A DNA stretch of 64,000 nucleotides from a methanogenic archaeon ISO4-H5 (GTDB lineage Archaea; Thermoplasmatota; Thermoplasmata; Methanomassiliicoccales; Methanomethylophilaceae). Below, piece after piece: positions 2,256 to 52,216 of this stretch; the first letter of the stretch is position 1; each line of letters begins with the position of its first letter. The DNA lies in assembly GCA_001560915.1 (NCBI GenBank), contig CP014214.1, positions 1,612,001-1,676,000 on the forward strand. Direction: 5' to 3'. A model generated the notes under the pieces. That model ran no database searches and was not told where the DNA came from. It was given only the letters and a program-made list of their open reading frames with translations. The position numbers were made by a program, and so were the translations under genes.

Positions 2256-2324
2256 CTATTCAGGAAATGGCCGAAATGCTCCGAAACGCTCGTTTTTTAC
2301 TGGCTAAAAAAATGTGGAATTTTT

Positions 2325-2392
2325 CATTGGATGGTTAGTCGATAATCTATCGCGAGTTTTATTATATTCTAATAAGACGAATATACCATCCA
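2325..2392 (+). promoter_or_regulatory. Promoter/operator of transporter operon A
   Basis: CATTGGATGGT (2325-2335) is followed by the palindrome CGATA-ATC-TATCG (2340-2352), then an AT-rich TATA-like box (about 2361-2368), then ACCATCCA (2385-2392), which is the exact inverse of TGGATGGT at 2328-2335. A GGAG ribosome site follows just before the ATG at 2409. The same arrangement stands before operon B (39703-39770) and, on the minus strand, before the surface-protein genes (29678-29757). It is probably one regulator's site; which regulator is unknown. Confidence 0.7.
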
Positions 2393-2408
2393 GTTGGAGC
2401 ATTGGTCC

Positions 2409-5045
2409 ATGAACAAGACTGTCCCGGTTGTGATCGTTGTCGCCGTAGCTTTGGTAGCGGCAGGTGTGGGAGCCTACGTGCTGATGAACAACGGTTCGTC
2501 GGACGATTACTACACGCCCATTGATGCAGAGAACACCCCGCCTTCGCAGTGGTCCTATTTCGGAGGGGATGTGGGGAGCTTTGGAGTGACCGATGCCAAG
2601 ACCCCTATAACAAAGGATGACATGAAATTGGCGTGGAAATTCGACAAGGCGAAACTCGACCAGGCGGGAGGTACATGGGAAGTACCGAGTTCGTCGATCT
2701 GCGTTGAGGACAGCGTGTTCTTCTACAGCGGGATGGAAAAGACCCTCTACCGCTGCTCCGTATCCACGGGGAAAGAGATCGCCACCGCGAAATGCGAATC
2801 CTCCTCCGTATACAACATGGCTCTGGCCTACGGTGACGGCAAGGTCTTCATCTGTGCTTATGACAAATCTAATTACGCCACCGTGCTCCACGCGTTCGAC
2901 GCGAACACGCTGGAACATCTCTTCCAGAGCGTCCCGGTATCCTCCGACGAGGTCCAGGGGACCATAACCTACAACGACGGCAAGGTCTACTTCGGAACGT
3001 ACAGCGGGGATTATGCCTGCTTCCTCACAACCGATACCGATAAGGACAGGTCCGACGAGACCGTCAAACCCCTCTGGCTGCTGAAATCGGACGGGTGGTA
3101 CAACGCCACGCCGGCCTTCTTCGACGACAGAATCGTCATTGTCCAGCGTGGATTCGACGACGGCGGTGCGACCGCATATCTCATCGATTCCGATACGGGC
3201 GTCGTTCTCGATACCATAAAATTCGACAGGGAGTACTCCTCGTCCGGTGCTACGGCATACGAGGGAAGGGTCTACATCCCTCTCAGCAGGGTCATCGACA
3301 GGACAATCGACCAGCCGAAGGCGGAGACCCCAAAACATCTGATAATCTACTCCTACGAGGTCAAGGATTCTGGATTCGACAAGACCTCGGTGAAGTCCTG
3401 GGAATCGAACTGCGCCGAGGGCAGCACCCAATCCATACCCGTCATCTGGAACGACACCATCTACATCGGAGGCGGAGGCCTCACAACCGGTTCCGATGAA
3501 CCGTTCTGGATCGTCGATATCGCAGATGACGGGACAATGTCCACGCGCGCCAGCTTCCCTGACATCAAGACCAAGGGAACGGCGGCCATAACCACTGCAT
3601 ACGCCACCAAAGAGAACGGATATGCCGTTTACATCTATCTGATGGAATACGGCCATGTCCAGCCCGGGGAGGACATACTTAGCACCAAGGGGTATGCTGA
3701 TATATTCGTGATAAAGGACTCCAAGACCGAAGGTGCCAGTGTTGCGTTCACCATAAGGCCGGAACCCGAACAGTTCTGCTTCCAGAGCTTCAGCATATCC
3801 AAGGACGGATATCTCCTCATCAAGAACGACTCCACGCTCTTCTGCTACCAACCCGGATCAGAATACACTGCATCCGATGTCAGTTCCGCGATCTCCAGGT
3901 TCGTATCGATGAACGAGGAAGGGAATGCGAATTACACGGATTATCTCAGAATCAAAGCGAGATACGATGCACTGGACCAGAGCGGGAAGGAAGCGGTCGG
4001 CAACTACGCCGATTTGGAAGGGGCGTGCGTCTCCCTCACTCTGAAGACGGCATCTGGGGACAAGGTCCTGACCGTACCCAAGGGTAGTCTGGTGGATATC
4101 CCTGCGGTATCCGTCCCCAACGGCAAAATCATTACCGGCTGGGAGTCCGGCGGCTCCCCCTGGTGTTCCTTCAGGGATTGTGTGACCGCAAATACCGTGC
4201 TCACACCCGTCTATGCCGATGCATGTACGGTCAGAGCGGACCCGGACAACGGCGACCCCGCCACGACGCTGCAGGTGGCCAAGGGCTCGAAGCTGCCGTA
4301 CATCGACGAACCCGTCCGTTCCGGATACAGATTCGACGGATGGATGACCGATTCGGAGGACATCTATCTCTCAGGCACCACGGTGGTGAACTCCGACCTC
4401 GACATGTTCGCCAAATGGGTCAAGATAATCACCCTCAAATTCGACACCGACGGCGGATCCGCCGTGAAGGGAACGTACAAGGTCGAACAGGGAAAGACCA
4501 TAGGTAAACTCCCGACTACGCTAAAAGCTGGTTACTCGTTCGGCGGATGGTTCTACAACAGCGTGGAATACACCAAGGATTCCACTTACACGTACAATTA
4601 TGCAGTGACGCTCAAAGCGCACTGGGTGGAGAACCCCGTCGTCACGAAGGACAACGGGAACGGGATCAGCATCACCGGACAGATGCCCAACGACGCCGTG
4701 CTGAGCGTCATGGATCCGCCCAGCACCACGGCCTCCTGCAAATCGGTCATCAACGAGTACAAGAAATCGCATCCGACTGACAACCCTGATAGCCTCAGGC
4801 TGTATCTCGTGGGCGACGGTGTGGATCCGTCCCTGACGTACACCGTGAGGATCGATGTTGGAACGGAACACAACGGAGAGACGTACGACGTCTGTTATTT
4901 CGATGAGACGAAGTCGGTCAAGGTCACAGGAACCGTTACCGACGGCAAACTGACTTTCGATGTCAAGGGCGATGACGAGAGCAGGGGCGAGATCTCGATC
5001 ACCTTCGCCACCGATCCCACATTGGGGATCAAGGACAGGTTGTGA
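2409..5045 (+). CDS. Membrane-anchored beta-propeller protein with InlB-type repeats (operon A, gene 1)
   Basis: This extracellular protein of 878 residues has an N-terminal membrane anchor (residues about 5-27), a PQQ/BamB-like beta-propeller (about 35-480) with repeated glycine-rich blades such as YIGGGG, a short helical linker, three Listeria-Bacteroides (InlB B) repeats (about 545-745, with the GYRFDGW and GYSFGGW signatures) and a C-terminal beta-domain. No C-terminal membrane segment is seen. ATG 2409 is chosen because GGAG precedes it and the copy B paralogue starts identically with MNKTVP; an upstream in-frame TTG is weaker. As first gene of the uptake operon it may bind ligand or attach to a surface. 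The next gene overlaps its stop by 4 bp. Confidence 0.85.
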   Translation: MNKTVPVVIVVAVALVAAGVGAYVLMNNGSSDDYYTPIDAENTPPSQWSYFGGDVGSFGVTDAKTPITKDDMKLAWKFDKAKLDQAGGTWEVPSSSICVEDSVFFYSGMEKTLYRCSVSTGKEIATAKCESSSVYNMALAYGDGKVFICAYDKSNYATVLHAFDANTLEHLFQSVPVSSDEVQGTITYNDGKVYFGTYSGDYACFLTTDTDKDRSDETVKPLWLLKSDGWYNATPAFFDDRIVIVQRGFDDGGATAYLIDSDTGVVLDTIKFDREYSSSGATAYEGRVYIPLSRVIDRTIDQPKAETPKHLIIYSYEVKDSGFDKTSVKSWESNCAEGSTQSIPVIWNDTIYIGGGGLTTGSDEPFWIVDIADDGTMSTRASFPDIKTKGTAAITTAYATKENGYAVYIYLMEYGHVQPGEDILSTKGYADIFVIKDSKTEGASVAFTIRPEPEQFCFQSFSISKDGYLLIKNDSTLFCYQPGSEYTASDVSSAISRFVSMNEEGNANYTDYLRIKARYDALDQSGKEAVGNYADLEGACVSLTLKTASGDKVLTVPKGSLVDIPAVSVPNGKIITGWESGGSPWCSFRDCVTANTVLTPVYADACTVRADPDNGDPATTLQVAKGSKLPYIDEPVRSGYRFDGWMTDSEDIYLSGTTVVNSDLDMFAKWVKIITLKFDTDGGSAVKGTYKVEQGKTIGKLPTTLKAGYSFGGWFYNSVEYTKDSTYTYNYAVTLKAHWVENPVVTKDNGNGISITGQMPNDAVLSVMDPPSTTASCKSVINEYKKSHPTDNPDSLRLYLVGDGVDPSLTYTVRIDVGTEHNGETYDVCYFDETKSVKVTGTVTDGKLTFDVKGDDESRGEISITFATDPTLGIKDRL

Positions 5046-6118
5046 TGGAAATGGAAGGGAAAACAAAGATCGCATTCATCGCCATAGTTGTCGTGGCCAT
5101 GGTCGCGGCCGGCGGAGTCGGCGTATCGGTCCTCGTGGGGAACGACAACGGCTCGGAGGAGAGACCGACCTACAATGCCGAAGTCAACGTGAAGATCGAT
5201 GATGAGTACAAATCCTTCAACGGCAGCGGAAAGACCGTGAAGGAGATCCTCGAGAGTGCCCTCGGAGAGGATGTGAAAGTGGGTGCCAACGGGAACGTTG
5301 CATCGTACAAGGAACAGAAGAACGACAGCAGCCACTCGTGGGTGGTGTTCAGGTTCCAGACACCCAACGGGTGGGTGAACGCAACAGACGACAATCTCGT
5401 GGAAGGCGCGACTCTGGCTCTTGAATTCTCGGAGAAGATCACCGAGAACGGGAAGGTGTCCTACAGCAAGCCGACCCTCGCCGTGACCAAGACAGTGTGG
5501 TTCTTCATCCAGATTCCCGCACTCGACGACATCAAGGACTGCGTGGATTCCGGATCCTTCAAAGTAAGAGAGGATTCGAACGGCAACCCCCTGAAGAGCG
5601 TAGAGGACTGCTACAACGAACTGAAAGACTGGACGGTCAGCGCCGGACTCAGCAGCAACGACCTCAGAACCGGGTTCTGGATCAAGGGCACGGGATCGTA
5701 CATGAACGAAGCCCTGGCCAACGGTCTGCACGAGACATTCTTCAAGGACGATGCCATGACCGTCGAGGACGACGGGGTCACCATCGACTACTGCATCAAC
5801 GGAGAGGTCATGCACTCCTCCCTGAAGAAGAGCGATCTCTACGGCTGGTTCGTTGACTTCCTCGGATGGGGCGACACCCAGCTCAACAACGGCGACTGGA
5901 CCTACTGGTCGCAATACACTTACAATCCCAACGCGAAGACCCTCGACGACGGACGCCAGTGGGAATACGACCAGTGGGCGCTGGGATTCTACGACATGGA
6001 CCTGTACAAGTACGTCGCGCTCGTCCTCCAGACAACCGCCCAGAAGGACGGAGGGGAAATTGATGTGGACATCACCATCCCCACGCCATCGACGATACCC
6101 GAGGAGCTCAAAGCATGA
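5042..6118 (+). CDS. DUF4430 (transcobalamin-like) secreted protein (operon A, gene 2)
   Basis: This 358-residue protein has an N-terminal signal/anchor helix (about 9-28) and two DUF4430-like units. The first (about 40-140) has a GKTVKEILESAL helix and WVNATDD; the second (about 150-335) has the aromatic signature WTYWSQY ... WALGFYD. DUF4430 is related to the C-terminal ligand-binding domain of transcobalamin, so a corrinoid- or cofactor-binding role outside the cell is likely but not shown. The GTG at 5042 overlaps the previous stop (GTGA); ATG 5051 is an alternative and is conserved in copy B, while the ATG at 5045 is not. The downstream gene starts inside its stop codon (ATGA). Confidence 0.85.
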   Translation: MMEMEGKTKIAFIAIVVVAMVAAGGVGVSVLVGNDNGSEERPTYNAEVNVKIDDEYKSFNGSGKTVKEILESALGEDVKVGANGNVASYKEQKNDSSHSWVVFRFQTPNGWVNATDDNLVEGATLALEFSEKITENGKVSYSKPTLAVTKTVWFFIQIPALDDIKDCVDSGSFKVREDSNGNPLKSVEDCYNELKDWTVSAGLSSNDLRTGFWIKGTGSYMNEALANGLHETFFKDDAMTVEDDGVTIDYCINGEVMHSSLKKSDLYGWFVDFLGWGDTQLNNGDWTYWSQYTYNPNAKTLDDGRQWEYDQWALGFYDMDLYKYVALVLQTTAQKDGGEIDVDITIPTPSTIPEELKA

Positions 6119-7500
6119 AGGTGACCCGCACCAAGATCCTCCTGACCGTCACTGTGCTGCTAGCGGTAGCGGTGCTCACTCCAGCGATGGGACTGACCAA
6201 TGCGGAGCGCGACGGAAGGAGCGGCGTGGTGCTGGACTTCGGATATTGGAATACCGAATGGGTCACGATGGACTTCGGCGACGGAATGAACGGATACCAG
6301 GCGCTGGAGAAGGCCTGCGAGCTGAAAGGGTTCACGGTCACGTACACCGACGATGCACACACACAGGTGTACTCGGTGAACGACCAATCCAACCTCCAGG
6401 GCAAAAAATGGGGCATGTACACGCTGAGCGGAGGGAACTGGGTCCCATGCGACGATCCCTCGGATATCTCCCTGGGAAAGAAGGACATAATAACTTGGGC
6501 GAGAGCGAGCGATGCAGGAGATATAGTTCCCGGCACGGACCAATCCGGATTCTCATACTACGGCTACGCGGACAACGGTTACTCGCTCAGGACGGGCGAG
6601 AAGCTGAAGGTCGTCTCCCTGGCCCCGTCGGTCACCGAGACCATATGCGCAGTGGGCGGGCTGGACTACATAGTCGGCACCGATCTTTACAGCAACTATC
6701 CCGAAGGTGTCACACAGGCGAAGAACGACGGGAAGATCAAGAACGTCGGCGGATACTCGGATCCGAACTACGAATGGATCGTGAAATTAGGACCGGATGT
6801 GGTGTTCTGCGAGGGCGGTACGGGAGAACATGTTGCCATGGCCGACAAGCTCCGCAAATCGGGCATAGACTGCGTCGTCACATACGACGTCACCAACGTG
6901 GAGAAACTGTACGACAACATCTGGATCGTCGCATCGGCGATGGGACTCAGCGGGAACGCCAACTCCGTGATATCGGCCTTCAGAGGGACGATCGATGCGG
7001 TCGCGGGAGTCATCGGATACCAGGCATCGGTCAGGACGTTCGTGGCCCTGTCGGCGGATCCTTCCCCGTGGACATCCGGTTCCGATACCTTCGCATCCGA
7101 CATAATATCCAAGGTATCCGGCACCAACGTATTCGATTCCCAGTCATCATCATGGTTCATGGTATCGAAAGAGCAGATCCATTCCAAACAGCCTCAGGTG
7201 ATCATCATAGTCCATTCCGGCGAGATTACCACGCAGGAGCAGTACGACCAGGTGATGGGGTGGATCGACCCCGTATGGCAGGAGACCCCCGCATACAGGA
7301 ACGGAAACGTGTATCTATTCACTGGGAAGGCCGCGGACCTGCTGTCCAGACCCGGTCCGAGACTGTGCGAGGCGGCAGAACTCCTGGGAAAGGCCCTGCA
7401 CCCGGACTCGTTCCTGCAGAGAGATCCTTTAGATTCCATCCCCAAGTACCTGGGGAACGACTACGACATCTATCTGACGTATCAGAGGGCGATAGCATGA
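6115..7500 (+). CDS. DUF4430-BtuF fusion: substrate-binding protein of a B12/Fe-type ABC importer (operon A, gene 3)
   Basis: This 461-residue secreted protein has a signal peptide (1-28), a DUF4430-like domain (about 35-145, with GYQALEKACELKGF and KWGMYTL) and a class III periplasmic-binding domain (Peripla_BP_2, about 160-435). The second domain begins VVSLAPSVTETICAVGG, as in BtuF/FhuD-type proteins, and contains VGGYSDPNYEWIVKLGPDVVF-type core strands. It would deliver ligand to the permease two genes on. Joining DUF4430 to a BtuF domain ties the DUF4430 proteins directly to import. It overlaps both neighbours by 4 bp. Cobalamin/corrinoid is the favoured substrate; iron chelates or haem cannot be excluded. 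Confidence 0.88.
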   Translation: MKVTRTKILLTVTVLLAVAVLTPAMGLTNAERDGRSGVVLDFGYWNTEWVTMDFGDGMNGYQALEKACELKGFTVTYTDDAHTQVYSVNDQSNLQGKKWGMYTLSGGNWVPCDDPSDISLGKKDIITWARASDAGDIVPGTDQSGFSYYGYADNGYSLRTGEKLKVVSLAPSVTETICAVGGLDYIVGTDLYSNYPEGVTQAKNDGKIKNVGGYSDPNYEWIVKLGPDVVFCEGGTGEHVAMADKLRKSGIDCVVTYDVTNVEKLYDNIWIVASAMGLSGNANSVISAFRGTIDAVAGVIGYQASVRTFVALSADPSPWTSGSDTFASDIISKVSGTNVFDSQSSSWFMVSKEQIHSKQPQVIIIVHSGEITTQEQYDQVMGWIDPVWQETPAYRNGNVYLFTGKAADLLSRPGPRLCEAAELLGKALHPDSFLQRDPLDSIPKYLGNDYDIYLTYQRAIA

Positions 7501-9344
7501 AGAAGACCGCCATCATCATCCTGGTTCTCATGACCGCACTGGTGGTCGTCCCCGTCTCGTCGGCGGATTCGTCCGAGGATACCGTTCTGGTGGATTTCGG
7601 CAACGGTTCGTACAAATGGTATAGCAACAACGGCGGAGGCACCTTCAATGCCGTGCTGGATTCCTCCGTCGATGCAGGTACCGCGGATACGATCAGGAAC
7701 GTCAGCACGTCGGATTGCAAATGGAGACTATTCGTATGGAACGGCAGCTGGGAGGATAAAGGCACCTCCCTCTCCGCTTCCTGCTCCGGCACGGTAGCGT
7801 ACGGATACTATCCCGAAGGGTTCGCTCCCGTCTCCACCCCCGAATATAGGGATTCATGGACAACACTGGGCGGATCCTCGACGGCCTCCAACATATCGGT
7901 CTCGCACGGACAGAGGAATCCCAAGGTCCCCGTGGAATGGTACAACACCTACACCACGGGATACGTCGATTCAGGACTGGTCGTTGCCGGCAATATGCTG
8001 TACCACACAACAGGCGGAGTCTACGAGGGAGCGGGGGAAGATGCAGATGCCTGGGTCTATGCTCTCGACAGGTTCTCCGGTTCCGTCGTGTGGAAATACC
8101 ACGGCGTCAAAGGGGCAGGATACGAGGTCACTACACCGCTGATCGTCGGCGACTACCTCATCGTCACGTTCACCTGCGGCGATGTGGTCTGTTTCGACCG
8201 CTTCACAGGAACCATAAAGGACAAGATGACTGTGGACAACACCCCGCCGTTGGACAGCGACGGCAACGTCGTCTGGAACGGAAGAACGTTCTACACCGGC
8301 GGAACAACGCCTGTGTATGATTCAGGAAGGATCTATTTCGGAACATCCGCAGGCACCGTCTTGTGCCTGCAACTTTCTGCATCGGGGACTTTCTCCACCG
8401 CATGGGAATACGTCCCGCCGTCAACTGTCGAGGACAACCATTACACGGGCACCCGCGGATGCTTCTACTTCCACGCACCCACCGTCTACACCGTGGACGG
8501 ACAGAGGATGCTGTTCATCGGCAATTACGACGGCTATGTCCACGCGGTGAACGCGGATACTGGTGTAATGATATGGGTGAGGAGGGTCATCGACATGTCC
8601 GCCGATAACCGCGCCGCTCCCGGTACCCCTGGTTCCGCAGCATCAGTATCCATGTCACCCGACGGTTCGCATCTGCTGGTGGGATGCACCGACGGGGCAT
8701 TGTTCTCCCTGGAAGGATACCTGTTGGCACTCGATCCGCTCACCGGGAATGAAATGACGCGGTCCGACAGCACCGCCTGGAAACTAGACGGGCTGTTCAC
8801 ATCGCCGGTCATCACCGTTGATGGATTCTACTCCTACGTTTCCCCGCTCTCGGCGGGTTCGGACATCTTCCCGAAAGCCGACGGAAGCAGCGACGCGGTC
8901 ACGAATTCCGTCTACTTCTTCAACTGGGACGGGAAGGTAGTATGGAAGACAGGGGAGTATCAAATGATCAAGGGTGCCCTGACAATGGATGCCGACGGCA
9001 TCCTGTACGGCACCGACTATTCCGCCGGGAGCTTCTGGCCCACCGGCGGCGCTCTGACCGCCTGGGACTCCAGCAACGGTTCGGAAATCTGGAGGGTCCT
9101 GCTCTCACCCTACACCCAGGACTCGTATTCCATGGTACAGCCCACCGTCATCGACGGCAAGATCTACACCGGCAACGACTACGGTGCGGTATACTGTCTC
9201 AGCGACATCAAGGGCGAAGGTACCGAAGAGGAGAGGGTCCAGGCACTGCAGTCGGTGGGATTCGCGCATTGGTCGTGGTATCTCACAGTCGCGGTTGCCG
9301 CCATTACCATCGCGGGATTCACCATATTGTACAGGAGGGGCTGA
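7497..9344 (+). CDS. Membrane-anchored PQQ-like beta-propeller protein (operon A, gene 4)
   Basis: This 615-residue protein has a signal peptide (1-24, ending SSA), an N-terminal beta-domain resembling DUF4430 (about 30-120), a PQQ/BamB-like propeller (about 130-575, blades ending VWKYHG, GYVHAVNADTG, AVYCLSD) and a C-terminal transmembrane helix followed by YRRG (about 587-615), so the propeller faces outward. ATG 7497 overlaps the previous stop (ATGA) and matches the start of the copy B gene; the much longer open frame upstream only shadows genes 2 and 3. It directly precedes the permease and may dock the binding protein or hold a cofactor. Confidence 0.86.
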   Translation: MKKTAIIILVLMTALVVVPVSSADSSEDTVLVDFGNGSYKWYSNNGGGTFNAVLDSSVDAGTADTIRNVSTSDCKWRLFVWNGSWEDKGTSLSASCSGTVAYGYYPEGFAPVSTPEYRDSWTTLGGSSTASNISVSHGQRNPKVPVEWYNTYTTGYVDSGLVVAGNMLYHTTGGVYEGAGEDADAWVYALDRFSGSVVWKYHGVKGAGYEVTTPLIVGDYLIVTFTCGDVVCFDRFTGTIKDKMTVDNTPPLDSDGNVVWNGRTFYTGGTTPVYDSGRIYFGTSAGTVLCLQLSASGTFSTAWEYVPPSTVEDNHYTGTRGCFYFHAPTVYTVDGQRMLFIGNYDGYVHAVNADTGVMIWVRRVIDMSADNRAAPGTPGSAASVSMSPDGSHLLVGCTDGALFSLEGYLLALDPLTGNEMTRSDSTAWKLDGLFTSPVITVDGFYSYVSPLSAGSDIFPKADGSSDAVTNSVYFFNWDGKVVWKTGEYQMIKGALTMDADGILYGTDYSAGSFWPTGGALTAWDSSNGSEIWRVLLSPYTQDSYSMVQPTVIDGKIYTGNDYGAVYCLSDIKGEGTEEERVQALQSVGFAHWSWYLTVAVAAITIAGFTILYRRG

Positions 9345-10481
9345 ATGGCTGAAAAAGGAAGACTGTTCACTTCGCTGAAGAAGGGATACAAAGGACTGAA
9401 GGAGGATATCGGAGCGCAGGACGAATCCGAGATCGCCAGGAAGAAGAAGAGATTCGTCCTGATCGTGATCTTCGGACTGATCATGTCCGTGATAGCGTTC
9501 CTGATATCGATATCCATCTCATCCGGAGGGGTGATTCCGGTATCCGAAGCGGTATCGGCACTGTTCTCATCGATAGGGAAGGCCTTCAACGGGGACAAGA
9601 ACCTCGATATGATCGAACTGTACATCTACAACGCCAGACTGCCCAGGACCATCGCCGCCATCGCTGTCGGTGCTGGACTGGCGGTCGCGGGATGCATGTA
9701 CCAGGCCATCATCCGCAACCCTCTGGTGGATCCCTACATCACCGGAGTGTCCTCTGGTGCCGGATGTCTCGCCATGGCTGCCACCGCACTCGGATTCAGC
9801 ATACCCTTCCTTGCTGACAACACCCTGTACATCATACCCGTCGTGGCCATCATCGGAGGTATCGCGGCATTCTTCATCACCATGACCGTGGCAGAAGGTT
9901 CCGGAGGATCCTCCATCAACTACATCCTGGCTGGAACCATCGTCGGTTTCGCGTTCTCATCCGTGCAGACAATCTTCATGAGCATGGGCAAGGACAACCT
10001 CACCGATGTCATGTGGTGGCTGTACGGCTCGTTCGCCAACATAACCTGGGAGAACGCTTGGATCATATTCATCCCCGCGATGGGCATCGCCATCGTGGCC
10101 ATGATTTGGGCAAGGGAGTTCAACCTCTATTCGATGGGGGAGGACCAGGCCGCACAGCTCGGACTGAACGTCAAGAGATTCAAGAGACTCACCATGATCA
10201 CCGCATCCATCCTCACCGCGCTCTGCGTTGCCTTTGTGGGGATTATCGGATTCGTGGGATTGGTTGTCCCGCACGCATGCCGTATGGCCCTGGGAAGCGA
10301 CCACAGGCTCATCATGCCCGCATCGGTAGTCATCGGTGCGATGCTGATGCTCTTCGCCGATCTTGTGGCCAGAACAGTCATGTCCCCTGCGGAACTGCCC
10401 GTCGGTGCCATCACCGCGATCATCGGTACGCCAGTATTCGCCTACATGCTCATGAAGAGGGGGCGCAACTATGACGGATGA
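9345..10481 (+). CDS. FecCD/BtuC-type ABC transporter permease (operon A, gene 5)
   Basis: This 378-residue integral membrane protein belongs to the FecCD family (vitamin B12, siderophore, haem). A basic cytoplasmic N-terminus (about 1-35) precedes roughly ten hydrophobic helices. Family signatures include RLPRTIAAIAVGAGLAVAG, NPLVDPYITGVSSGAG, and a late GLVVPHACR segment before the last helices. The ATG follows the previous stop without a gap, and the ATPase gene starts 11 bp before its end. The copy B protein differs at only about ten positions by eye. Confidence 0.93.
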   Translation: MAEKGRLFTSLKKGYKGLKEDIGAQDESEIARKKKRFVLIVIFGLIMSVIAFLISISISSGGVIPVSEAVSALFSSIGKAFNGDKNLDMIELYIYNARLPRTIAAIAVGAGLAVAGCMYQAIIRNPLVDPYITGVSSGAGCLAMAATALGFSIPFLADNTLYIIPVVAIIGGIAAFFITMTVAEGSGGSSINYILAGTIVGFAFSSVQTIFMSMGKDNLTDVMWWLYGSFANITWENAWIIFIPAMGIAIVAMIWAREFNLYSMGEDQAAQLGLNVKRFKRLTMITASILTALCVAFVGIIGFVGLVVPHACRMALGSDHRLIMPASVVIGAMLMLFADLVARTVMSPAELPVGAITAIIGTPVFAYMLMKRGRNYDG

Positions 10482-11271
10482 GATTCCTCTCCTTAAGATA
10501 CAGGGTCTGGTTAAGGACTTCGGGGATTTCAGAGCCCTCAAGGGCATCGACCTCGAATTCGGAAGAGGTCTTTTGGTAGGTCTAATCGGCCCTAACGGAT
10601 GCGGAAAATCGACGATGATGAAATGTATCAGCCGCTTGCACCCGCAGACCTCCGGTACCATCGAGGTCGACGGGAAGGATGTGACCTCGCTTAAACCTGC
10701 AGAAGTGGCCAAGATCGTTGCCACCGTTCCCGCCGAAGCGGGTCAGACCTTCGGTATAAGCGTCATGGATATGGTAATGCTCGGTCGTTATCCTTTCGTC
10801 GAGAAGATCTGGTGGGAGAATCCCGAGGACGAGAGGGTCACCATCGAAGCTATGCGCACATTCGGCATCGACCATCTCAGGAGAAAACAGGTCGCCCTGT
10901 GTTCATCGGGTGAAAGGCAGCGTGCCCTCATCGCAAAAGCGTACGTACAGCAGCCCAAGCTCATGCTGGTGGACGAACCCACATCCCATCTGGATATGAA
11001 ATACAAACTGCAGGTCATGGAATACCTGCAGAAGATGGCCAGAACCGACATGACAGTAATCGTTGCGGAGCACGACATCTCCCTGATGGCCAGATACTGC
11101 GACATCTGCGTCATCATGAAGAAAGGTGAGATCGTAGCGGTAGGCGACCCGAAAGTCATCATCACCGAGGACCTCATACGCGATGTGTACGACGTGGAGG
11201 CACGCGTAGGGCTGGATGTCGACGGGGAGATCTATGTCCTGCCGAAAAGATATGTCGAAGGAAGCTTATGA
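10471..11271 (+). CDS. BtuD/FepC-type ABC transporter ATPase (operon A, gene 6)
   Basis: This 266-residue nucleotide-binding subunit pairs with the FecCD permease. Walker A is GPNGCGKS (about 41-48), the signature motif is CSSGERQR in place of LSGGQ, Walker B is LMLVDEPTSHLD, and the switch histidine lies in VAEHD. It starts within the permease gene (11-bp overlap). The operon appears to end here: 370 bp without a gene follow. Confidence 0.94.
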   Translation: MTDEIPLLKIQGLVKDFGDFRALKGIDLEFGRGLLVGLIGPNGCGKSTMMKCISRLHPQTSGTIEVDGKDVTSLKPAEVAKIVATVPAEAGQTFGISVMDMVMLGRYPFVEKIWWENPEDERVTIEAMRTFGIDHLRRKQVALCSSGERQRALIAKAYVQQPKLMLVDEPTSHLDMKYKLQVMEYLQKMARTDMTVIVAEHDISLMARYCDICVIMKKGEIVAVGDPKVIITEDLIRDVYDVEARVGLDVDGEIYVLPKRYVEGSL

Positions 11272-13828: not shown

Positions 13829-13829
13829 G

Positions 13830-39770: not shown

Positions 39771-39786
39771 GTTGGAGGATTCTTCC

Positions 39787-42423
39787 ATGAACAAGACCGT
39801 CCCGATAGCCATCATAGTCGTCGCATCGTTGGCCGCAGCAGGAGTGGGCGTATTCATACTGATGAACAACAGCTCATCGAATGATTACTACACGCCGATA
39901 GATCCCGAGAACACGACTCCGTCCCAATGGTCCTATTTCGGCGGGGACGTTGGCAGCTTCGGAGTGACGGATGCGAAGACGCCGATAACCCAGGCCGATA
40001 TGAAACTGGCCTGGAAATACGACAAAGCGAAGCTCGATCAGGCCGGCGGCACATGGGAGGTCCCGAGTTCCGCCATTTGCGTGGAGGACAGCGTGTTCTT
40101 CTACAGCGGAATGGAAAAGTCCCTCTGCCGCTGTTCAGTGGTCACCGGAAAGGAGATCGCTAGCGTGAAATGCGAATCCTCTTCCGTATACAACATGGCC
40201 CTGGCCTACGGTGACGGGAAGATATTCATCTGCGCCTACGACAAGGCGAATTACGCGACGGTGCTGCATGCTTTCGACGCCAATACGCTGGATCATCTCT
40301 TCCAGAGCGTCCCTGTGGCCTCCGACGAGGTCCAGGGTACGATCACATACAACGACGGCAAGGTGTTCTTCGGAACATACAGCGGCGATTACGCCTGCTT
40401 CCGTACCGCCGACACGGACAAGGAGAGATCGGATGAGACCGTGAAACCCCTCTGGCTGCTGAAATCCGATGGCTGGTACAACGCCACGCCCGCATTCCTA
40501 GACGACAAGATCGTCATCGTCCAGAGGGGATTCGATGACGGCGGTGCCACCGCATATATGATAGATTCTGAGACTGGGGTGATCATCGACACCATCAAAT
40601 TCGACAAGGAATACTCGTCATCGGGCGCCACGGCCTACGAGGGCAGGGTGTACATCCCCCTCAGCAGGGTTATCGACAGAACGGTGGAACAGCCCAAGGC
40701 GGAGACACCGAAACACCTGATCATCTATTCCTACGAGGTCAGCGATTCCGGATTCGACAAACCGTCCATCAAATCATGGGAATCGAACTGCGCGGAAGGC
40801 AGTACCCAATCCATCCCCGTGATATGGAACGACACCATCTACATCGGAGGCGGAGGGCTGACGACCGGTTCCGACGAACCGTTCTGGATCATCGATATAG
40901 CACAGGACGGGTCGATGTCCACACGTGCCAGCTTCCCTGATCTGAAGACCAAGGGTACCGCTGCCATTACCACCGCCTACGCCACCAAGGAGAACGGTTA
41001 CGCCGTCTATATCTACCTCATGGAATACGGCCACGTAGCTCCCGGTGAGGATATCCTCAGCACCAAGGGATACGCGGACATCTACGTCATCAAAGACTCC
41101 AAGACCACGGGCACGGAGATCGTCTTCACCATTAGGCCCGAACCGGAACAGTTCTGCTTCCAGAGCTTCAGCATATCCAAGGACGGACATCTGCTCATCA
41201 AGAACGATTCAACCCTCTTCTGCTACGAATCCGCTTCCGCATATTCCGCATCGGACGTCAGCTCGGCGATATCCAGATTCGTGGCCATGAACGAGGATGG
41301 CAATGCGAATTACACCGACTATCTCAGGATAAAGGCAAGATACGACGCACTGGACCAGAGCGGGAAGGATGCCGTCGGCAACTATGCCGACCTGGAGAAA
41401 GCATGTGTGTCGCTCACCCTCAAGACAGCATCAGGTGACAAGGTGCTGACCGTTCCGAAGGGATGCCTGATGGACATCCCGTCCGTTTCGACCCCCAGCG
41501 GGAAGATCGTCACCGGCTGGGAATCCGGCGGATCTCCGTGGTGCTCCTTCAGCGATGCAGTGATATCCGATACCGTACTGACACCAGTCTACGCGAATGC
41601 CTTCACGGTCAAGGCGGACCCGGACAACGGGGAGTCCGCCGTCACCATGCAGGTCGCAGCAGGTTCCAAACTGCCTTACATCGATGAGCCCGTCCGTGCC
41701 GGATACAGGTTCGACGGGTGGATGACCGACTCCGAGGATATCTACCTCTCCGGTACAACGGCCGTGAACTCGGACCTCGACCTGTTCGCCAAATGGGTAA
41801 AGATAATCACCCTGAAGTTCGACACCGACGGCGGATCCGCCGTGAAAGGTACATACAAGGTCGAACAGGGCAAGGCGATCGGGAAGCTCCCGGTCACACT
41901 GAAGGCAGGATACTCGTTCGACGGATGGTACTTCAACGAGACTGAATACACCAAGGATACCGTATATCCGAACAGTTACGCTGTGACACTGAAGGCGAAA
42001 TGGATTAAGAACGACGAGATTACCAAGGATAACGGGAACGGCGTCAGCATCACCGGGCGGATGCCTGACGATGCCGCACTGACTGTCAACGTACCTCCGA
42101 GCACCACCGCCTCTTGCAAATCGGTCGTCGGCGAGTACAAGAAAGTTCACCCCGACGCCAATCCGGACAGCCTCAGGATTTATCTGAAGGGCGACGGCGT
42201 CCATCCCGACCTCACCTACACAGTGAAGATCGAGGTCGGATCCAGCCACAACGGCGAGACGTACGATGTATGCTATTTCGATGAGACCAAATCCGTCAGG
42301 GTCACAAGCACGGTCACCGACGGCAAACTGACATTCGAACTGAAAGGCGATGATGAAAGCAGAGGCGAGATTTCGATCACCTTCGCGACCGATTCCGCAT
42401 TAGGGATCAAGGACAGAGTGTGA
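39787..42423 (+). CDS. Membrane-anchored beta-propeller protein with InlB-type repeats (operon B, gene 1)
   Basis: Paralogue of 2409-5045 with the same length (878 residues) and domains: N-terminal membrane helix, PQQ/BamB-like propeller (about 35-480), three InlB-type repeats (about 545-745) and a C-terminal beta-domain. Most differences from copy A lie in the InlB and C-terminal parts; the propeller is nearly unchanged. The start MNKTVP follows GGAGG. The stop overlaps the next gene by 4 bp (GTGA). Confidence 0.85.
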   Translation: MNKTVPIAIIVVASLAAAGVGVFILMNNSSSNDYYTPIDPENTTPSQWSYFGGDVGSFGVTDAKTPITQADMKLAWKYDKAKLDQAGGTWEVPSSAICVEDSVFFYSGMEKSLCRCSVVTGKEIASVKCESSSVYNMALAYGDGKIFICAYDKANYATVLHAFDANTLDHLFQSVPVASDEVQGTITYNDGKVFFGTYSGDYACFRTADTDKERSDETVKPLWLLKSDGWYNATPAFLDDKIVIVQRGFDDGGATAYMIDSETGVIIDTIKFDKEYSSSGATAYEGRVYIPLSRVIDRTVEQPKAETPKHLIIYSYEVSDSGFDKPSIKSWESNCAEGSTQSIPVIWNDTIYIGGGGLTTGSDEPFWIIDIAQDGSMSTRASFPDLKTKGTAAITTAYATKENGYAVYIYLMEYGHVAPGEDILSTKGYADIYVIKDSKTTGTEIVFTIRPEPEQFCFQSFSISKDGHLLIKNDSTLFCYESASAYSASDVSSAISRFVAMNEDGNANYTDYLRIKARYDALDQSGKDAVGNYADLEKACVSLTLKTASGDKVLTVPKGCLMDIPSVSTPSGKIVTGWESGGSPWCSFSDAVISDTVLTPVYANAFTVKADPDNGESAVTMQVAAGSKLPYIDEPVRAGYRFDGWMTDSEDIYLSGTTAVNSDLDLFAKWVKIITLKFDTDGGSAVKGTYKVEQGKAIGKLPVTLKAGYSFDGWYFNETEYTKDTVYPNSYAVTLKAKWIKNDEITKDNGNGVSITGRMPDDAALTVNVPPSTTASCKSVVGEYKKVHPDANPDSLRIYLKGDGVHPDLTYTVKIEVGSSHNGETYDVCYFDETKSVRVTSTVTDGKLTFELKGDDESRGEISITFATDSALGIKDRV

Positions 42424-43496
42424 TTGAAATGGAAGGGAAGATGAAGATCACATTCATCGCCATAGCCATCGTGGCCACGGTCGCGGTCGCCGGCGTGGGT
42501 GTGTCCGTATTCATGAACAACGACGGCGGCTCTGCGGAGAGACCCACATACAATGCCGACGTCAACGTGAAGATAGATGACGAATACAAATCGTTCAGCG
42601 GAACGGGGAAGACCGTCAAGGAGATCCTCGAATCCGCTCTGGGAGACGATGTGAAAGTAGGTGCCAACGGCAACGTGTCATCCTACAAGGAACAGAAGAA
42701 CGACTCTGACCACTCCTGGGTAGTGTTCAGGTACCAGACGCCCAAGGGATGGGTGAACGCCACGGATGACAACCTGGCGGAAGGTGCCACGCTGGCACTG
42801 GAATTCTCGGAGAAGATCGTGGAGGGCGGGAAGACCACTTACAAGGTGCCGACCCTCGAAGTCAAGAAGACCGTGTGGTTCTTCATCCAGATCCCCGCAT
42901 TGGACGACATAAAGGAATGCGTGGAATCCGGTTCCTTCAAGGTCAGGGAGGACTCCAACGGAAATCCGCTGAAGAGCGTCGAGGACTGCTATAACGAACT
43001 GAAGGCCTGGACCGTCAATGCCGGACTGAACAACAACGACCTCAGGAACGGATTTTGGATCAAAGGTACCGGATCGTACATGAACGAGGCCCTGGCCAAC
43101 GGCCTATACGACACGTTCTTCTCCGGCGAGACCATGACGGTCGAGGATGACGGTGTGACCATCGACTACTGCATCAACGGCGATGTCATGCATTCCTCGC
43201 TGAAGAAGAGCGACCTCTACGGATGGTTCGTGGATTTCCTCGGATGGGGTGACACCCAGCTGAACAACGGTGATTGGACCTACTGGTCGCAGTATACGTA
43301 CAACCCCAACGCGAAGACCCTGGACGACGCACGCCAGTGGGAATACGACCAGTGGGCGCTCGGATTCTATGACATGGACCTGTACAAGTATGTCGCGCTG
43401 GTCCTGCAGACCACCCCGCAAAAGGACGGAGGGGACTTCGATGTCGATGTCCCCATCCCGACGCCTTCGGCGATCCCCGAGGAGCTCAAGGCATGA
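42420..43496 (+). CDS. DUF4430 (transcobalamin-like) secreted protein (operon B, gene 2)
   Basis: 358 residues, paralogue of 5042-6118. Signal/anchor helix (about 9-27), a first DUF4430 unit (about 40-140) and a second unit with WTYWSQY ... WALGFYD (about 285-330). The start is GTG 42420, overlapping the previous stop; ATG 42429 is the alternative shared with copy A. Likely binds a corrinoid-type ligand outside the membrane. Confidence 0.84.
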   Translation: MIEMEGKMKITFIAIAIVATVAVAGVGVSVFMNNDGGSAERPTYNADVNVKIDDEYKSFSGTGKTVKEILESALGDDVKVGANGNVSSYKEQKNDSDHSWVVFRYQTPKGWVNATDDNLAEGATLALEFSEKIVEGGKTTYKVPTLEVKKTVWFFIQIPALDDIKECVESGSFKVREDSNGNPLKSVEDCYNELKAWTVNAGLNNNDLRNGFWIKGTGSYMNEALANGLYDTFFSGETMTVEDDGVTIDYCINGDVMHSSLKKSDLYGWFVDFLGWGDTQLNNGDWTYWSQYTYNPNAKTLDDARQWEYDQWALGFYDMDLYKYVALVLQTTPQKDGGDFDVDVPIPTPSAIPEELKA

Positions 43497-44878
43497 AGAT
43501 CACCCGCACCAAGATCGCCCTGAGCGTCGTCGTGATGCTTGCCGTAGTGATACTCACCCCTGCCATGGGGCTGACCAACGCGGAGCGCGACGGAAGGAGC
43601 GGCGTGGTGCTGGACTTCGGTTACTGGAACACCGAATGGGTGACGATGGACTTCGGCGACGGGATGAACGGCTACCAGGCACTGGAGAAGGCCTGCGAGC
43701 TCAAGGGTTTCACGGTCACATACACGGACGATGCCCATACCCAGGTCTATTCGATCAACGACCAATCGAACCTCCAGGGAAAGAAATGGGGGATGTATAC
43801 CCTTCACGGAGGCGACTGGATCCCCTGTGACGATCCCTCCGGCATATCCCTGGGCAAGAACGAGATAATAACCTGGGCGAGAGCGAATGACTCGGAAGAT
43901 ATAGTTCCGGGCACCGACCAATCCGGGTTCTCGTACTACAGTTACGCGGACAACGGTTATTCCCTCAGGACCGGCGAGAAGCTCCGGGTGGTATCCCTGG
44001 CCCCGTCGGTGACCGAGACCATCTGCGCCATCGGCGGACTGGACTACATAGTCGGTACCGACCTGTACAGCAACTATCCCGAGGGAGTAACTCAGGCGAA
44101 GAATGACGGGAAGATCAAGAATGTCGGCGGATACTCGGACCCGAACTACGAATGGATAGTGAAGCTGGGTCCGGACGTGGTGTTCTGCGAAGGCGGCACC
44201 GGTGAGCACGTGGCCATGGCCGACAAACTCAGAAAATCCGGCATCGACTGCGTCGTGACATATGATGTCACGGACGTGGAGAAGCTGTACGACAACATCT
44301 GGATGGTTGCATCGGCGATGGGGCTCAGCGGGAACGCGAATTCGGTGATATCGGCATTCAGGGGCACGATGGATGCGGTCGCGGGAGTGATCGGATACCA
44401 GGCATCCGTCAGAACGTTCGTAGCCCTCTCTGCGGACCCTTCCCCTTGGACATCCGGATCCAATACCTTCGCATCCGACATAATCTCCAAGGTATCTGGA
44501 ACCAACGTGTTCGATTCGCAGTCGTCGTCTTGGTTCATGGTATCCAAGGAGCAGATCCACTCCAAACAGCCGCAGGTCATAATCATAGTACATGGCGGCG
44601 AGATAACGACACAGGAACAGTACGACCAGGTCATGGGCTGGATAGACCCCGTGTGGCAAGAGACTCCAGCGTACCGCAACGGCAACGTGTACCTGTTCAC
44701 CGGGAAGGCCGCTGATCTCCTGTCCAGGCCAGGGCCCAGATTGTGCGAGGCCGCGGAATTGCTCGGGAAGGCCCTGCACCCCGATGCCTTCCTGCAGAGG
44801 GACCCGCTGGATTCCATCCCGAAGTATCTGGGCAACGACTATGACATCTATCTGAAGTATCAGAGGGAGATAGCATGA
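43493..44878 (+). CDS. DUF4430-BtuF fusion substrate-binding protein (operon B, gene 3)
   Basis: 461 residues, same length and domains as 6115-7500: signal peptide, DUF4430-like domain (about 35-145) and Peripla_BP_2 domain (about 160-435) starting VVSLAPSVTETICAIGG. Only scattered conservative changes from copy A are seen in the binding domain, so both copies probably bind the same ligand. ATGA overlaps on both sides. Confidence 0.87.
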   Translation: MKITRTKIALSVVVMLAVVILTPAMGLTNAERDGRSGVVLDFGYWNTEWVTMDFGDGMNGYQALEKACELKGFTVTYTDDAHTQVYSINDQSNLQGKKWGMYTLHGGDWIPCDDPSGISLGKNEIITWARANDSEDIVPGTDQSGFSYYSYADNGYSLRTGEKLRVVSLAPSVTETICAIGGLDYIVGTDLYSNYPEGVTQAKNDGKIKNVGGYSDPNYEWIVKLGPDVVFCEGGTGEHVAMADKLRKSGIDCVVTYDVTDVEKLYDNIWMVASAMGLSGNANSVISAFRGTMDAVAGVIGYQASVRTFVALSADPSPWTSGSNTFASDIISKVSGTNVFDSQSSSWFMVSKEQIHSKQPQVIIIVHGGEITTQEQYDQVMGWIDPVWQETPAYRNGNVYLFTGKAADLLSRPGPRLCEAAELLGKALHPDAFLQRDPLDSIPKYLGNDYDIYLKYQREIA

Positions 44879-46722
44879 GGAGGGCCGCCATCATACTGAT
44901 CGCATTGCTGACGGCTCTGGCCGTGGTTCCCGTATCCTCTGCGGATTCTGCCGAGGACAGCGTGCTGGTGGATTTCGGGAACGGCTCATACCGCTGGTAT
45001 CCGAACAGCGGTGGATCCACTTTCGATGCAGTCCTGGATTCGTCAGTGGATTCCGGCACAGCGGATACGATCAGAAACGTGCACACCTCGGACTGCCATT
45101 GGAGACTGTTCGTCTGGAACGGCAGCTGGGAGGATAAGGGCACAGACCTTTCCGCAACATGCTCCGGGACCGTCGCGTTCGGATACTACCCGGAAGGGTT
45201 CGCACCCGTCTCCACCCCGGAGTACAGGGATTCCTGGACCACACTCGGCGGTTCGTCGACCGCGTCCAACATCTCCGTGTCCCACGGTCAGAAGAACCCG
45301 AAGGTCCCGGTGGAGTGGTACAACACATACACCACAGGATATGTCGACTCCGGATTGGTCGTGGCAGGGGATATGCTGTACCACACCACGGGAGGCGTCT
45401 ACGAGGGAGCAGGGGAGGATGCGGATGCCTGGGTCTACGGCCTGGACAGGTTCTCGGGTTCGGCAGTATGGAAGTACCACGGGACCAAGGGCGCAGGATA
45501 CGAGGTCACGACTCCGCTCATCGTCGGGGATTATCTCATCGTCACATTCACCTGCGGCGACGTCATCTGCTTCGACCGCCACACCGGGGCAGTGAAGGAT
45601 AAGATCACCGTGGACAACACCCCACCGCTGGACGGGGACGGGAACGTCGTATGGAACGGCAGGACCTTCTACACCGGAGGCACCACACCGGTATATGACT
45701 CCGGACGCATCTACTTCGGAACATCATCTGGAACCGTCAGATGCCTGGCACTTTCTTCCTCAGGGACATTCTCCGATGACTGGGAGTACGTGCCGCCATC
45801 GACAGTCGACGGCAGCCAATACACGGGCACCCGCGGATGCTTCTACTTCCATGCCCCGACAATCTATACCATAAGCGGACAGAGGATGCTGTTCATCGGG
45901 AACTACGACGGCTACGTACATGCCGTGAACGCGGATACGGGTAATCCCGTATGGGTGAAGAGGGTCATCGACATGACCGCCAACAACCGTGCCGCCCCTG
46001 GGACCCCTGGTTCCGCCGCATCGGTCTCGATGTCACCCGACGGATCGCACCTGCTGGTAGGGTGCACCGACGGTGCTCTTTTCTCGCTGGAAGGATACCT
46101 TCTGGCGCTCGATCCGCTCACAGGTAACGGACTCACCCGTTCGGACAGTTCCGAATGGAAACTGGACGGACTGTTCACATCCCCGGTGATTACCGCAGGC
46201 GGTTTCTACTCCTATGTGTCCCCGCTATCCGCAGGTTCGGACACCTTCCCGAAGGCCGGCGGCGGAGACGATACCGTCACCAATTCCGTCTATTTCTTCG
46301 ACTGGGACGGGAAGGTCGTCTGGAAGACGGGAGAGTATCAGATGATCAAAGGTGCGCTGACGATGGATGCCGACGGCATCCTGTACGGCACCGATTACTC
46401 CGCCGGGAGCTTCTGGCCCACCGGCGGCGCTCTGACCGCATGGGATTCCAGCGACGGTTCGGAGTTATGGAGGGTCCTGCTCTCACCCTATACCCAGGAC
46501 TCGTATTCCATGGTGCAGCCGACCGTCATCGACGGCAAGATCTACACCGGCAACGACTTCGGTGCAGTATACTGCCTGAGCGACGTGAAGGGCGAAGGCA
46601 CCGAAGAGGAGAGGGTGCAGGCGCTGCAGTCGGTGGGATTCGCCCACTGGTCGTGGTATCTCACCGTGGCTGTGGCCGCCGTAACGATAGCGGGATTCGC
46701 CATATTGTACAGGAGGGGCTGA
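44875..46722 (+). CDS. Membrane-anchored PQQ-like beta-propeller protein (operon B, gene 4)
   Basis: 615 residues, paralogue of 7497-9344: signal peptide, N-terminal beta-domain, propeller (about 130-575) and a C-terminal transmembrane helix with the YRRG tail. ATG 44875 overlaps the previous stop. No gap to the permease gene. Confidence 0.86.
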   Translation: MRRAAIILIALLTALAVVPVSSADSAEDSVLVDFGNGSYRWYPNSGGSTFDAVLDSSVDSGTADTIRNVHTSDCHWRLFVWNGSWEDKGTDLSATCSGTVAFGYYPEGFAPVSTPEYRDSWTTLGGSSTASNISVSHGQKNPKVPVEWYNTYTTGYVDSGLVVAGDMLYHTTGGVYEGAGEDADAWVYGLDRFSGSAVWKYHGTKGAGYEVTTPLIVGDYLIVTFTCGDVICFDRHTGAVKDKITVDNTPPLDGDGNVVWNGRTFYTGGTTPVYDSGRIYFGTSSGTVRCLALSSSGTFSDDWEYVPPSTVDGSQYTGTRGCFYFHAPTIYTISGQRMLFIGNYDGYVHAVNADTGNPVWVKRVIDMTANNRAAPGTPGSAASVSMSPDGSHLLVGCTDGALFSLEGYLLALDPLTGNGLTRSDSSEWKLDGLFTSPVITAGGFYSYVSPLSAGSDTFPKAGGGDDTVTNSVYFFDWDGKVVWKTGEYQMIKGALTMDADGILYGTDYSAGSFWPTGGALTAWDSSDGSELWRVLLSPYTQDSYSMVQPTVIDGKIYTGNDFGAVYCLSDVKGEGTEEERVQALQSVGFAHWSWYLTVAVAAVTIAGFAILYRRG

Positions 46723-47859
46723 ATGGCTGAAAAAGGAAAACTGTTCACTTCGCTGAAGAAGGGATACAAGGGACTGAAGGAGGACCTGGGTTCGCAGGAC
46801 GACTCCGAGATTGCAAGGAAGAAGAAGAGGTTCACTCTGATAGTGATATTCGGACTGGTCATGTCGGTGATCGCGTTCCTGATATCCATCTCGATATCAT
46901 CCGGAGGTGTTATCCCAGTATCCGAGGCGGTCTCGGCGCTGTTCTCCTCCATAGGCAAGGCCTTCAGCGGCGACAGGAACCTGGATATGATCGAGCTGTA
47001 CATCTACAACGCCAGACTCCCCAGGACCATCGCCGCCATCGCGGTGGGTGCCGGACTGGCCGTTGCGGGATGTATGTATCAGGCGATCATCCGCAACCCC
47101 CTTGTCGACCCATATATCACGGGAGTGTCCTCGGGTGCAGGGTGTCTCGCCATGGCCGCCACCGCACTTGGGTTCAGCATACCCTTCCTTGCTGACAACA
47201 CCCTGTACATCATCCCCGTGGTAGCGATCATCGGAGGTATCGTGGCATTCTTCATCACCATGACCGTCGCGGAGGGATCCGGCGGATCCTCCATCAACTA
47301 CATCCTTGCAGGAACCATCGTCGGTTTCGCGTTCTCCTCCGTGCAGACCATCTTCATGAGCATGGGGAAGGACAATCTGACGGACGTGATGTGGTGGCTG
47401 TACGGAAGCTTCGCCAACATCACCTGGGAGAACGCATGGATCATATTCATCCCCGCGATGGGCATTGCCATCGTGGCCATGATCTGGGCGAGGGAGTTCA
47501 ACCTGTACTCCATGGGTGAGGATCAGGCCGCCCAGCTCGGTCTCAACGTGAAGAGATTCAAGAGACTGACCATGATTACCGCATCCATCCTCACCGCACT
47601 CTGCGTTGCGTTTGTCGGTATCATCGGATTCGTCGGACTCGTTGTACCGCACGCGTGCCGTATGGCCCTCGGTAGCGACCACAGGCTAATTATGCCTGCA
47701 TCCGTGGTCATCGGTGCGATGCTTATGCTGTTCGCAGATCTGGTGGCGAGGACCGTGATGTCCCCTGCAGAACTGCCCGTGGGTGCCATCACGGCGATCA
47801 TCGGTACCCCGGTATTCGCTTACATGCTCATGAAGAGGGGGCGCAACTATGACGGATGA
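46723..47859 (+). CDS. FecCD/BtuC-type ABC transporter permease (operon B, gene 5)
   Basis: 378 residues and about ten membrane helices, with NPLVDPYITGVSSGAG and GLVVPHACR as in copy A. By eye about ten residues differ from copy A, most in the first 50 residues, while the DNA shows many silent changes. The ATPase gene starts 11 bp before its end. Confidence 0.93.
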   Translation: MAEKGKLFTSLKKGYKGLKEDLGSQDDSEIARKKKRFTLIVIFGLVMSVIAFLISISISSGGVIPVSEAVSALFSSIGKAFSGDRNLDMIELYIYNARLPRTIAAIAVGAGLAVAGCMYQAIIRNPLVDPYITGVSSGAGCLAMAATALGFSIPFLADNTLYIIPVVAIIGGIVAFFITMTVAEGSGGSSINYILAGTIVGFAFSSVQTIFMSMGKDNLTDVMWWLYGSFANITWENAWIIFIPAMGIAIVAMIWAREFNLYSMGEDQAAQLGLNVKRFKRLTMITASILTALCVAFVGIIGFVGLVVPHACRMALGSDHRLIMPASVVIGAMLMLFADLVARTVMSPAELPVGAITAIIGTPVFAYMLMKRGRNYDG

Positions 47860-52215: not shown

Positions 52216-52216
52216 C

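Follow-up and report, generated by a model that had tools for sequence, protein, structure and literature searches.

Several systems described earlier bear on the present locus. In the available part of their study, Burroughs et al. (2007) define a transcobalamin-like clade of the SLBB superfamily that includes the DUF4430-type domain, give toroid, beta-propeller, Ig and fasciclin domains and CbiO/CbiQ operons as its partners, propose B12 scavenging for bacteria, and suggest that archaea might take up a distinct metabolite, since many of them make B12 (PMC1796856). For the Methanomassiliicoccales, the accessible portion of a second paper reports several BtuC clades and BtuFCD (PMC10804542), and the archaeal CbiZ route with its BtuCDF neighbourhoods is described, for another family, in a third source available in part (PMC3541065). 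The excerpt at hand of a fourth describes BtuG of Bacteroides as a cell-surface beta-propeller that is encoded with B12 import genes and binds B12 with femtomolar affinity (PMC6143338). Here we analyse a stretch of 64,000 nucleotides (the window; CP014214.1, positions 1,612,001 to 1,676,000) from the methanogenic archaeon ISO4-H5, a member of the Methanomassiliicoccales, which encodes a fusion of a transcobalamin-beta-like domain related to DUF4430 (the N-domain) with a BtuF-like substrate-binding protein (SBP). The kinship between DUF4430 and transcobalamin has been known since 2007; the links to BtuF are apparently new, and neither BtuF fusions nor a BtuFCD/CbiZ linkage of the transcobalamin-like domain was found in print among open-access full texts. 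In the fusion system, modules already known are combined in a new way, and this arrangement points to a ligand.

The fusion protein starts with a membrane or signal helix (residues 2–26, a signal or an anchor), followed by the N-domain of about 108 residues and the PF01497 domain. Its AlphaFold2 model (41 sequences) has a predicted local distance difference test (pLDDT) score of 91.5 and a predicted template modelling (pTM) score of 0.87. We regard it as reasonably probable that the fusion is the corrinoid-binding, extracytoplasmic subunit of a BtuFCD importer, which has gained a transcobalamin-beta-related domain for the capture of corrinoids at the cell surface. Four copies are present in the ISO4-H5 genome. 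The original prediction had placed the fusion in a duplicated pair within the window (copies A and B); both open reading frames (ORFs) are confirmed, with identities of 94% at the protein and 85.2% at the DNA level. Between these copies the N-domain has 33 synonymous against 10 nonsynonymous codon differences, which indicates that it is under selection, while the corresponding numbers are 116 and 11 for the BtuF part, and 7 and 7 for the signal part. With synonymous changes making up most of the coding differences in the fusion, both copies look maintained. The codon pattern of the N-domain, together with full-length fusions at 44 places in 30 of 61 related genomes (matches beginning at residue 12 or earlier), rules out a chance fusion.

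The fusion occurs in 27 of the 37 genomes of ISO4-H5's own family and in 3 of 24 from the order's other families; elsewhere in the order the homologous SBP is mostly without the N-domain. The 80 loci kept from the named collection include 45 with the fusion, all of these in Methanomassiliicoccales-type records (Methanomethylophilaceae, Methanoplasma, and metagenome-assembled genomes labelled 'Thermoplasmata archaeon' or 'archaeon'), many from rumen or gut. A search of the plasmid collection returned zero records reaching 80% query coverage. All 80 loci were examined, and neighbours were counted for the 45 with the fusion where the contig allows. Downstream of the fusion lie a propeller homologue (42 of 43 loci), BtuC (33 of 34) and BtuD (29 of 29).

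Pfam's own DUF4430 model, PF14478, gives zero matches to the fusion protein at E ≤ 1 and, for the whole 1.94-Mb genome, zero at E ≤ 0.001. Because PF14478 is silent on the N-domain, a shuffle-controlled profile comparison was used. A profile of the N-domain (residues 33–139, 23 homologues) was compared by HHalign with one built from 34 genuine DUF4430 stretches of other genomes of the class, giving a probability of 96.9 and a score of 56.7; in the controls, scores were 15.8 for the best of 60 column shuffles, 10.7 for the reversed profile and at most 10.7 for seven slices of the BtuF part. As the fold search list for the full-length model was filled by the SBP part only, the N-domain was folded alone (AlphaFold2, 40 sequences; pLDDT 93.1). 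The 18 best PDB chains for this model comprise 16 of transcobalamin, haptocorrin and intrinsic factor and two of the bacterial entry 3u7z, and only two of the 18 reach E ≤ 0.001. In a fold comparison with VIA, 14 entries of vertebrate carriers reach Z scores of 10.5–11.5 over 94–96 residues; 3u7z follows with 9.4, and the next fold scores 7.2. When the N-domain profile was searched against PDB sequences, nothing was found (best Talin-2, E 1.7). As judged from profiles and model, the N-domain is a diverged DUF4430 relative with the predicted fold of the transcobalamin beta domain; it is DUF4430-related rather than a PF14478 member, and the miss reflects the detection limit of one model.

The label 'DUF4430' of the original prediction holds as a statement of kinship, by profile and by fold, but does not pass Pfam's own test. 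The prediction had also made the structure of the DUF4430 part decisive, and the modelled fold is that of a B12-binding domain. In the transcobalamin beta domain, a conserved aromatic residue in the insert before strand 3 contacts the ligand (PMC1949818), and according to the available text of a further study, the human beta domain has been crystallised on its own with cobinamide as well as with cyanocobalamin (PMC5599065). Most rows of the N-domain family alignment have an aromatic residue after the helix, a candidate, at the sequence level, for the equivalent of the transcobalamin residue.

In the BtuF part, PF01497 matches residues 166–402 with 113 bits against a cut-off of 27.5, and comparison with PDB entry 1n2z gives a Z of 24.7 and a root-mean-square deviation of 2.4 over 244 aligned residues. 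The aromatic pocket of E. coli BtuF is formed, according to the accessible part of its description, by Y50, W66, W85, F162, F168 and W196; the W66Y variant still binds cobalamin at 5.7 nM, and cobinamide about threefold more weakly than the wild type (PMC5269720). Y50, W66, F168 and W196 align with Y192, Y214, W319 and W347 (numbering from the aligned W66Y chain, with an offset of three), which are aromatic in 40/41, 41/41, 40/40 and 40/40 family members, respectively. The original prediction had staked itself on corrinoid-binder features in this part as well, and four of the six aromatic pocket positions are kept. The positions aligned with Glu72 and Glu202 of E. coli BtuF, which we take to be the glutamates docking onto BtuC, are E220 and E353, conserved in 40/41 and 38/40 members.

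In the operon, the fusion gene stands between the genes for a 356-residue protein and a propeller protein (Pfam label PQQ_2); BtuC follows the propeller gene after one base, and BtuD overlaps BtuC by 11 bases (Table 1). HHalign relates the N-terminal half of the 356-residue protein to the N-domain (96.3) and to DUF4430 (46.7), and does the same for the N-terminal domain of the propeller protein (97.8 and 82.0, respectively; score 73.7 against 16.4 for the best of 40 shuffles). On this basis, three consecutive extracytoplasmic proteins appear to start with a transcobalamin-beta-like domain. Two further candidates for such a domain, the second half of the 356-residue protein (HHalign at most 6.2) and the 883-residue upstream protein (E 0.97), gained no support. 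The occurrence of the domain on three neighbouring proteins would also suit a corrinoid importer in which the domain is a protein–protein scaffold for the fusion, the propeller and the 356-residue protein, and makes no contact with the ligand; the variability of the stretch after the helix fits with this as well. Such a pure scaffold is the main rival to a role in ligand contact. We consider it rather unlikely, as the closest fold is that of a ligand-binding B12 domain and not of a generic beta-grasp adaptor.

For corrinoids as the probable ligand, the salvage operon beside the fourth copy is the strongest evidence, and it comes from the same genome. CbiZ lies at 2.4 kb from the fourth fusion. 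Divergent to this fusion are a CobD-like aminotransferase (best NCBIfam model TIGR01140, below cut-off), CbiB (TIGR00380, 221.4 against a cut-off of 165.9), CbiS, a bifunctional hydrolase of the CbiZ type (NF038002, 312.9 against 250), CobS (PF02654 over cut-off; 107 against 110 on TIGR00317) and a weak CobY-like transferase, for which CobY is the second model, below cut-off. At the fourth copy, propeller and BtuC form one ORF (1193 residues, L279:2904-6485), as they do in another genome (995 residues, L281:6613-9600), and these proteins have an N-terminal transcobalamin-beta-like domain. The ISO4-H5 genome contains ten matches to the corrinoid-binding PF02310, nine of them over cut-off. Among the related genomes, the fusion and CbiZ lie at most 8 kb apart in 10 of the 28 having both (counted from 70 of 94 place rows, 24 weak or partial rows being left out, and from 62 of 66 CbiZ rows, leaving out 4 fragments). 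For SBPs without the N-domain this proximity is commoner still (17 of 19), which means that the N-domain is dispensable for corrinoid import. That these proteins manage without it speaks for the scaffold; at the same time, corrinoid import seems to be the basal state of the SBP family, with the N-domain as an addition.

The association recurs in other archaea. On the Halobacteriota side (the phylum of ANME-1), where 86 genomes have a DUF4430 match, 60 DUF4430 regions were picked in 58 of these genomes from the listed places, largely best first and not at random, and 20 control regions were taken at round-number positions of 8 long-contig genomes of the same set. BtuF homologues, called with their own profile at E < 1e-15, occur in 42 of the 60 regions, in 40 of them at most 6 kb from the DUF4430 gene; PQQ propellers occur in 46, and in 33 on the same ORF as DUF4430. 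The control regions contain no BtuF, PQQ or DUF4430, and four BtuD-type ATPases. The significance of the difference for BtuF (42/60 against 0/20; Fisher 9.5e-9) is overstated because related genomes are not independent, and the same relatedness inflates the significance of CbiZ lying inside a DUF4430 region in 12 of 52 genomes having CbiZ, where 0.39 were expected by length (genomes G178, G188 and G193, genome G149, which is outside the region set, and two fragment rows were left out). The combination of DUF4430 with PF01497, named as a search target in the original prediction, exists in single chains. A 927-residue ANME-1 protein (P0003, L139:5324-8107) contains PKD, PF01497, a PQQ propeller and PF14478, the latter with 30.9 against a cut-off of 23.8, and two further one-chain proteins with BtuF, PQQ and DUF4430 (L217 and L227) come from two other genomes of the phylum. 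Pfam searches on examples reveal DUF4430 with an alpha/alpha toroid in one chain, which are the two domains of transcobalamin itself, a toroid with PF01497 in one chain, and a propeller with four DUF4430 domains. Methanosarcina acetivorans, a tractable species, also gives matches for DUF4430, the toroid and CbiZ. Up to four copies beside a propeller would suit a linker, and thus a scaffold, but the domain recurs with other B12-type modules, toroid and BtuF, which speaks against a mere scaffold. Eight permeases and ATPases from other archaea were tested, and each of them scores best on a corrinoid or B12 model of NCBIfam, below cut-off. In two clusters a gene for a xylose-isomerase-like TIM barrel (PF01261) directly follows BtuD (L177:1581-2306 and L179:14417-15142).

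Besides the silence of PF14478 and of the PDB sequence search, and the SBPs that lack the N-domain near CbiZ, a number of further observations weigh against a fusion that captures corrinoids. In 18 of the 28 genomes, the fusion and CbiZ lie on different contigs or at a distance of more than 8 kb, and no corrinoid-salvage genes were recognised alongside copies A and B. In the BtuF pocket, W85 has no counterpart and F162 is replaced by Leu. The BtuF part scores 78.6 on the NCBIfam equivalog NF002894, against a cut-off of 234, and none of the tested BtuF, BtuC and BtuD proteins passes a curated NCBIfam B12 cut-off. VIA places heme-binding proteins level with BtuF (Z about 24–26), and Foldseek places several of them above it. 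DUF4430 is found without BtuF in 18 of the 60 Halobacteriota-side regions and in all of 20 regions from other Thermoplasmata. The curated cut-offs, not being reached, were discarded as proof of the ligand; the protein may work like BtuF though it lies outside the NF002894 equivalog. An Rfam search of the window found zero RNA families, so a cobalamin riboswitch gives no support. By fold the BtuF part is tied between heme-binding proteins and BtuF, and by its residues it leans to BtuF.

The tie in fold and the unreached cut-offs would also agree with heme, a siderophore or another tetrapyrrole as the ligand, the B12 names then being inherited from homology. The permease of copy A, for which a putative F420-0 model (219) narrowly outscores that of BtuC (217.1), and the distinct archaeal metabolite suggested in the available text of Burroughs et al. 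(PMC1796856) point the same way. Such a ligand is nevertheless improbable in view of the corrinoid-salvage genes beside the fourth copy and the CbiZ genes in the clusters of other archaea, the toroid and beta domains of transcobalamin type that are fused with BtuF or lie next to it, and the corrinoid or B12 models that score best for the eight permeases and ATPases elsewhere and for the ATPase of the window. In our estimate, the system very probably imports corrinoids; direct contact between the beta-like domain and the corrinoid is somewhat favoured, with clearly less assurance. The original prediction had held that the joining of DUF4430 to BtuF hints at the same ligand for both, a proposal that gains support, at the level of predicted fold and gene order, from the neighbours, the fourth-copy operon and the DUF4430–BtuF–CbiZ linkage. 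Its clue to the function of DUF4430 was partly anticipated in 2007, and DUF4430 also occurs without BtuF.

A general rule by which DUF4430 is always found with BtuF was rejected on the regions without BtuF and on a fasciclin–DUF4430 protein, and these cases leave a rule that it always denotes a corrinoid without support. The fasciclin–DUF4430 protein, of 1034 residues with five fasciclin domains and DUF4430, is encoded between two mechanosensitive-channel genes (L233:6600-12730). In the 20 regions of other Thermoplasmata, a propeller is present in 7, and one region reads DUF4430–CbiQ–CbiO–ECF S, as Burroughs et al. described for bacteria. In the four Thermoplasmata cases tested (L261:8351-9019, L272:3129-3767, L273:3793-4419 and L278:7811-8437), the gene after that of DUF4430 always encodes a DUF6580 (PF20221) protein, which may be a membrane partner for DUF4430 at loci that lack BtuF.

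Read on from the computed fold, gene linkage, operon and fourth-copy salvage genes, the ligand, its hand-over, the surface location and the later remodelling would take the following form. Outside the membrane, the 356-residue protein, the fusion and the propeller protein would capture corrinoids (cobamides or cobinamide), which are scarce there. In the fusion, the beta-like domain would contact the corrinoid or receive it from the propeller protein, and then hand it to the BtuF cleft or help to close it in there. The BtuF part, with its two lobes and conserved docking glutamates, would dock on BtuCD for ATP-driven import. Inside the cell, the nucleotide loop of foreign cobamides would be stripped and rebuilt by CbiS/CbiZ, CbiB, CobS and CobY, whose genes lie next to the fourth copy. 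In this scheme, context gives strong support to the import step, and the uncertainty lies in what the beta-like domain does (contact, hand-over or lid).

Table 1. Features of the fusion operon (copy A) and its duplicate (copy B) in window coordinates.
Feature	Coordinates	Strand	Description
Upstream 879-residue protein	2406..5045	+	Flg_new (Listeria-Bacteroides) repeats, weak propeller match
356-residue protein	5048..6118	+	N-terminal half homologous to N-domain; 4-base overlap with fusion gene
Fusion protein	6115..7500	+	461 residues, ATG start; helix, N-domain and BtuF-like PF01497 domain
N-domain, transcobalamin-beta-like (DUF4430-related)	6211..6534	+	residues 33–140; HHalign, AlphaFold2 model, PDB matches
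BtuF-like class III substrate-binding domain	6595..7497	+	residues ~161–461; PF01497, PDB matches, pocket residues
615-residue PQQ-type beta-propeller	7497..9344	+	own transcobalamin-beta-like domain, residues ~27–126; 4-base overlap with fusion gene
BtuC-like permease	9345..10481	+	FecCD, PF01032
BtuD-like ATPase	10471..11271	+	best NCBIfam model corrinoid ABC transporter ATPase NF007082, below cut-off
Copy B of upstream protein	39772..42423	+	883 residues, ORF
Copy B of 356/358-residue protein	42420..43496	+	ORF
Copy B of fusion protein	43493..44878	+	461 residues, ORF
Copy B of propeller protein	44875..46722	+	ORF
Copy B of BtuC	46723..47859	+	ORF
Copy B of BtuD	47849..48649	+	ORF

The duplicated block covers positions 2319-11265 and 39696-48643, about 37.4 kb apart. 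The duplication extends to 11622-15980 and 50022-54366, and to 17892-19628 and 56485-58239, with a DNA identity of 78–87%. After the operon, at 11606-14411 and 50042-52798, lie genes for multi-zinc-ribbon proteins and a winged-helix regulator with DUF4443 (domains checked in copy A).

Methylotrophic methanogens and ANME-1 archaea rely on corrinoid proteins. We see about an even chance that archaea run a transcobalamin-type system of their own, in which toroid, beta domain and propellers, fused onto BtuF and even BtuC, form a relay that passes corrinoids from the surface across the envelope to BtuCD, with remodelling by CbiZ/CbiS inside. If so, DUF4430 would in these lineages be a corrinoid-contacting module, which would answer the ligand question of 2007. 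The findings tie a domain of unknown function to a transport step, make that question testable for archaea, and indicate a corrinoid-capture apparatus in methylotrophic methanogens of rumen and gut and in the methane-oxidising ANME-1 archaea.

Compared with the SLBB operons of Burroughs et al., the archaeal loci share the DUF4430-type domain in the company of toroid, propeller, Ig and fasciclin domains. The transporters of those operons are of the CbiO/CbiQ type, whereas a fusion to BtuF and BtuFCD or CbiZ/CbiS neighbours are absent from the available parts of that paper. BtuG, as far as the excerpts of its description go, resembles the present propeller in being a surface beta-propeller encoded with B12 import genes, a likeness by description. 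It is a Bacteroidetes lipoprotein with seven propeller blades and works with BtuB, however, whereas the PQQ-type propellers carry a transcobalamin-beta-like domain and are sometimes fused to BtuC. With E. coli BtuF the fusion has in common the PF01497 fold, aromatic residues at four of the six pocket positions and BtuC and BtuD as neighbours, but the E. coli protein is without the additional N-domain and N-terminal helix. Transcobalamin, intrinsic factor and haptocorrin share with the N-domain the fold of their beta domain, homology at the profile level and a secreted context. The transcobalamin beta domain accompanies an alpha/alpha toroid, while the N-domain is fused to a BtuF-like SBP instead; a search for the toroid PF13243 in the ISO4-H5 genome found none. 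In other archaea the toroid accompanies the beta-type domain too, as in transcobalamin. In an evolutionary parallel, each of the two halves of the animal B12 carrier is found linked, apart from the other, to one and the same import protein of bacterial type.

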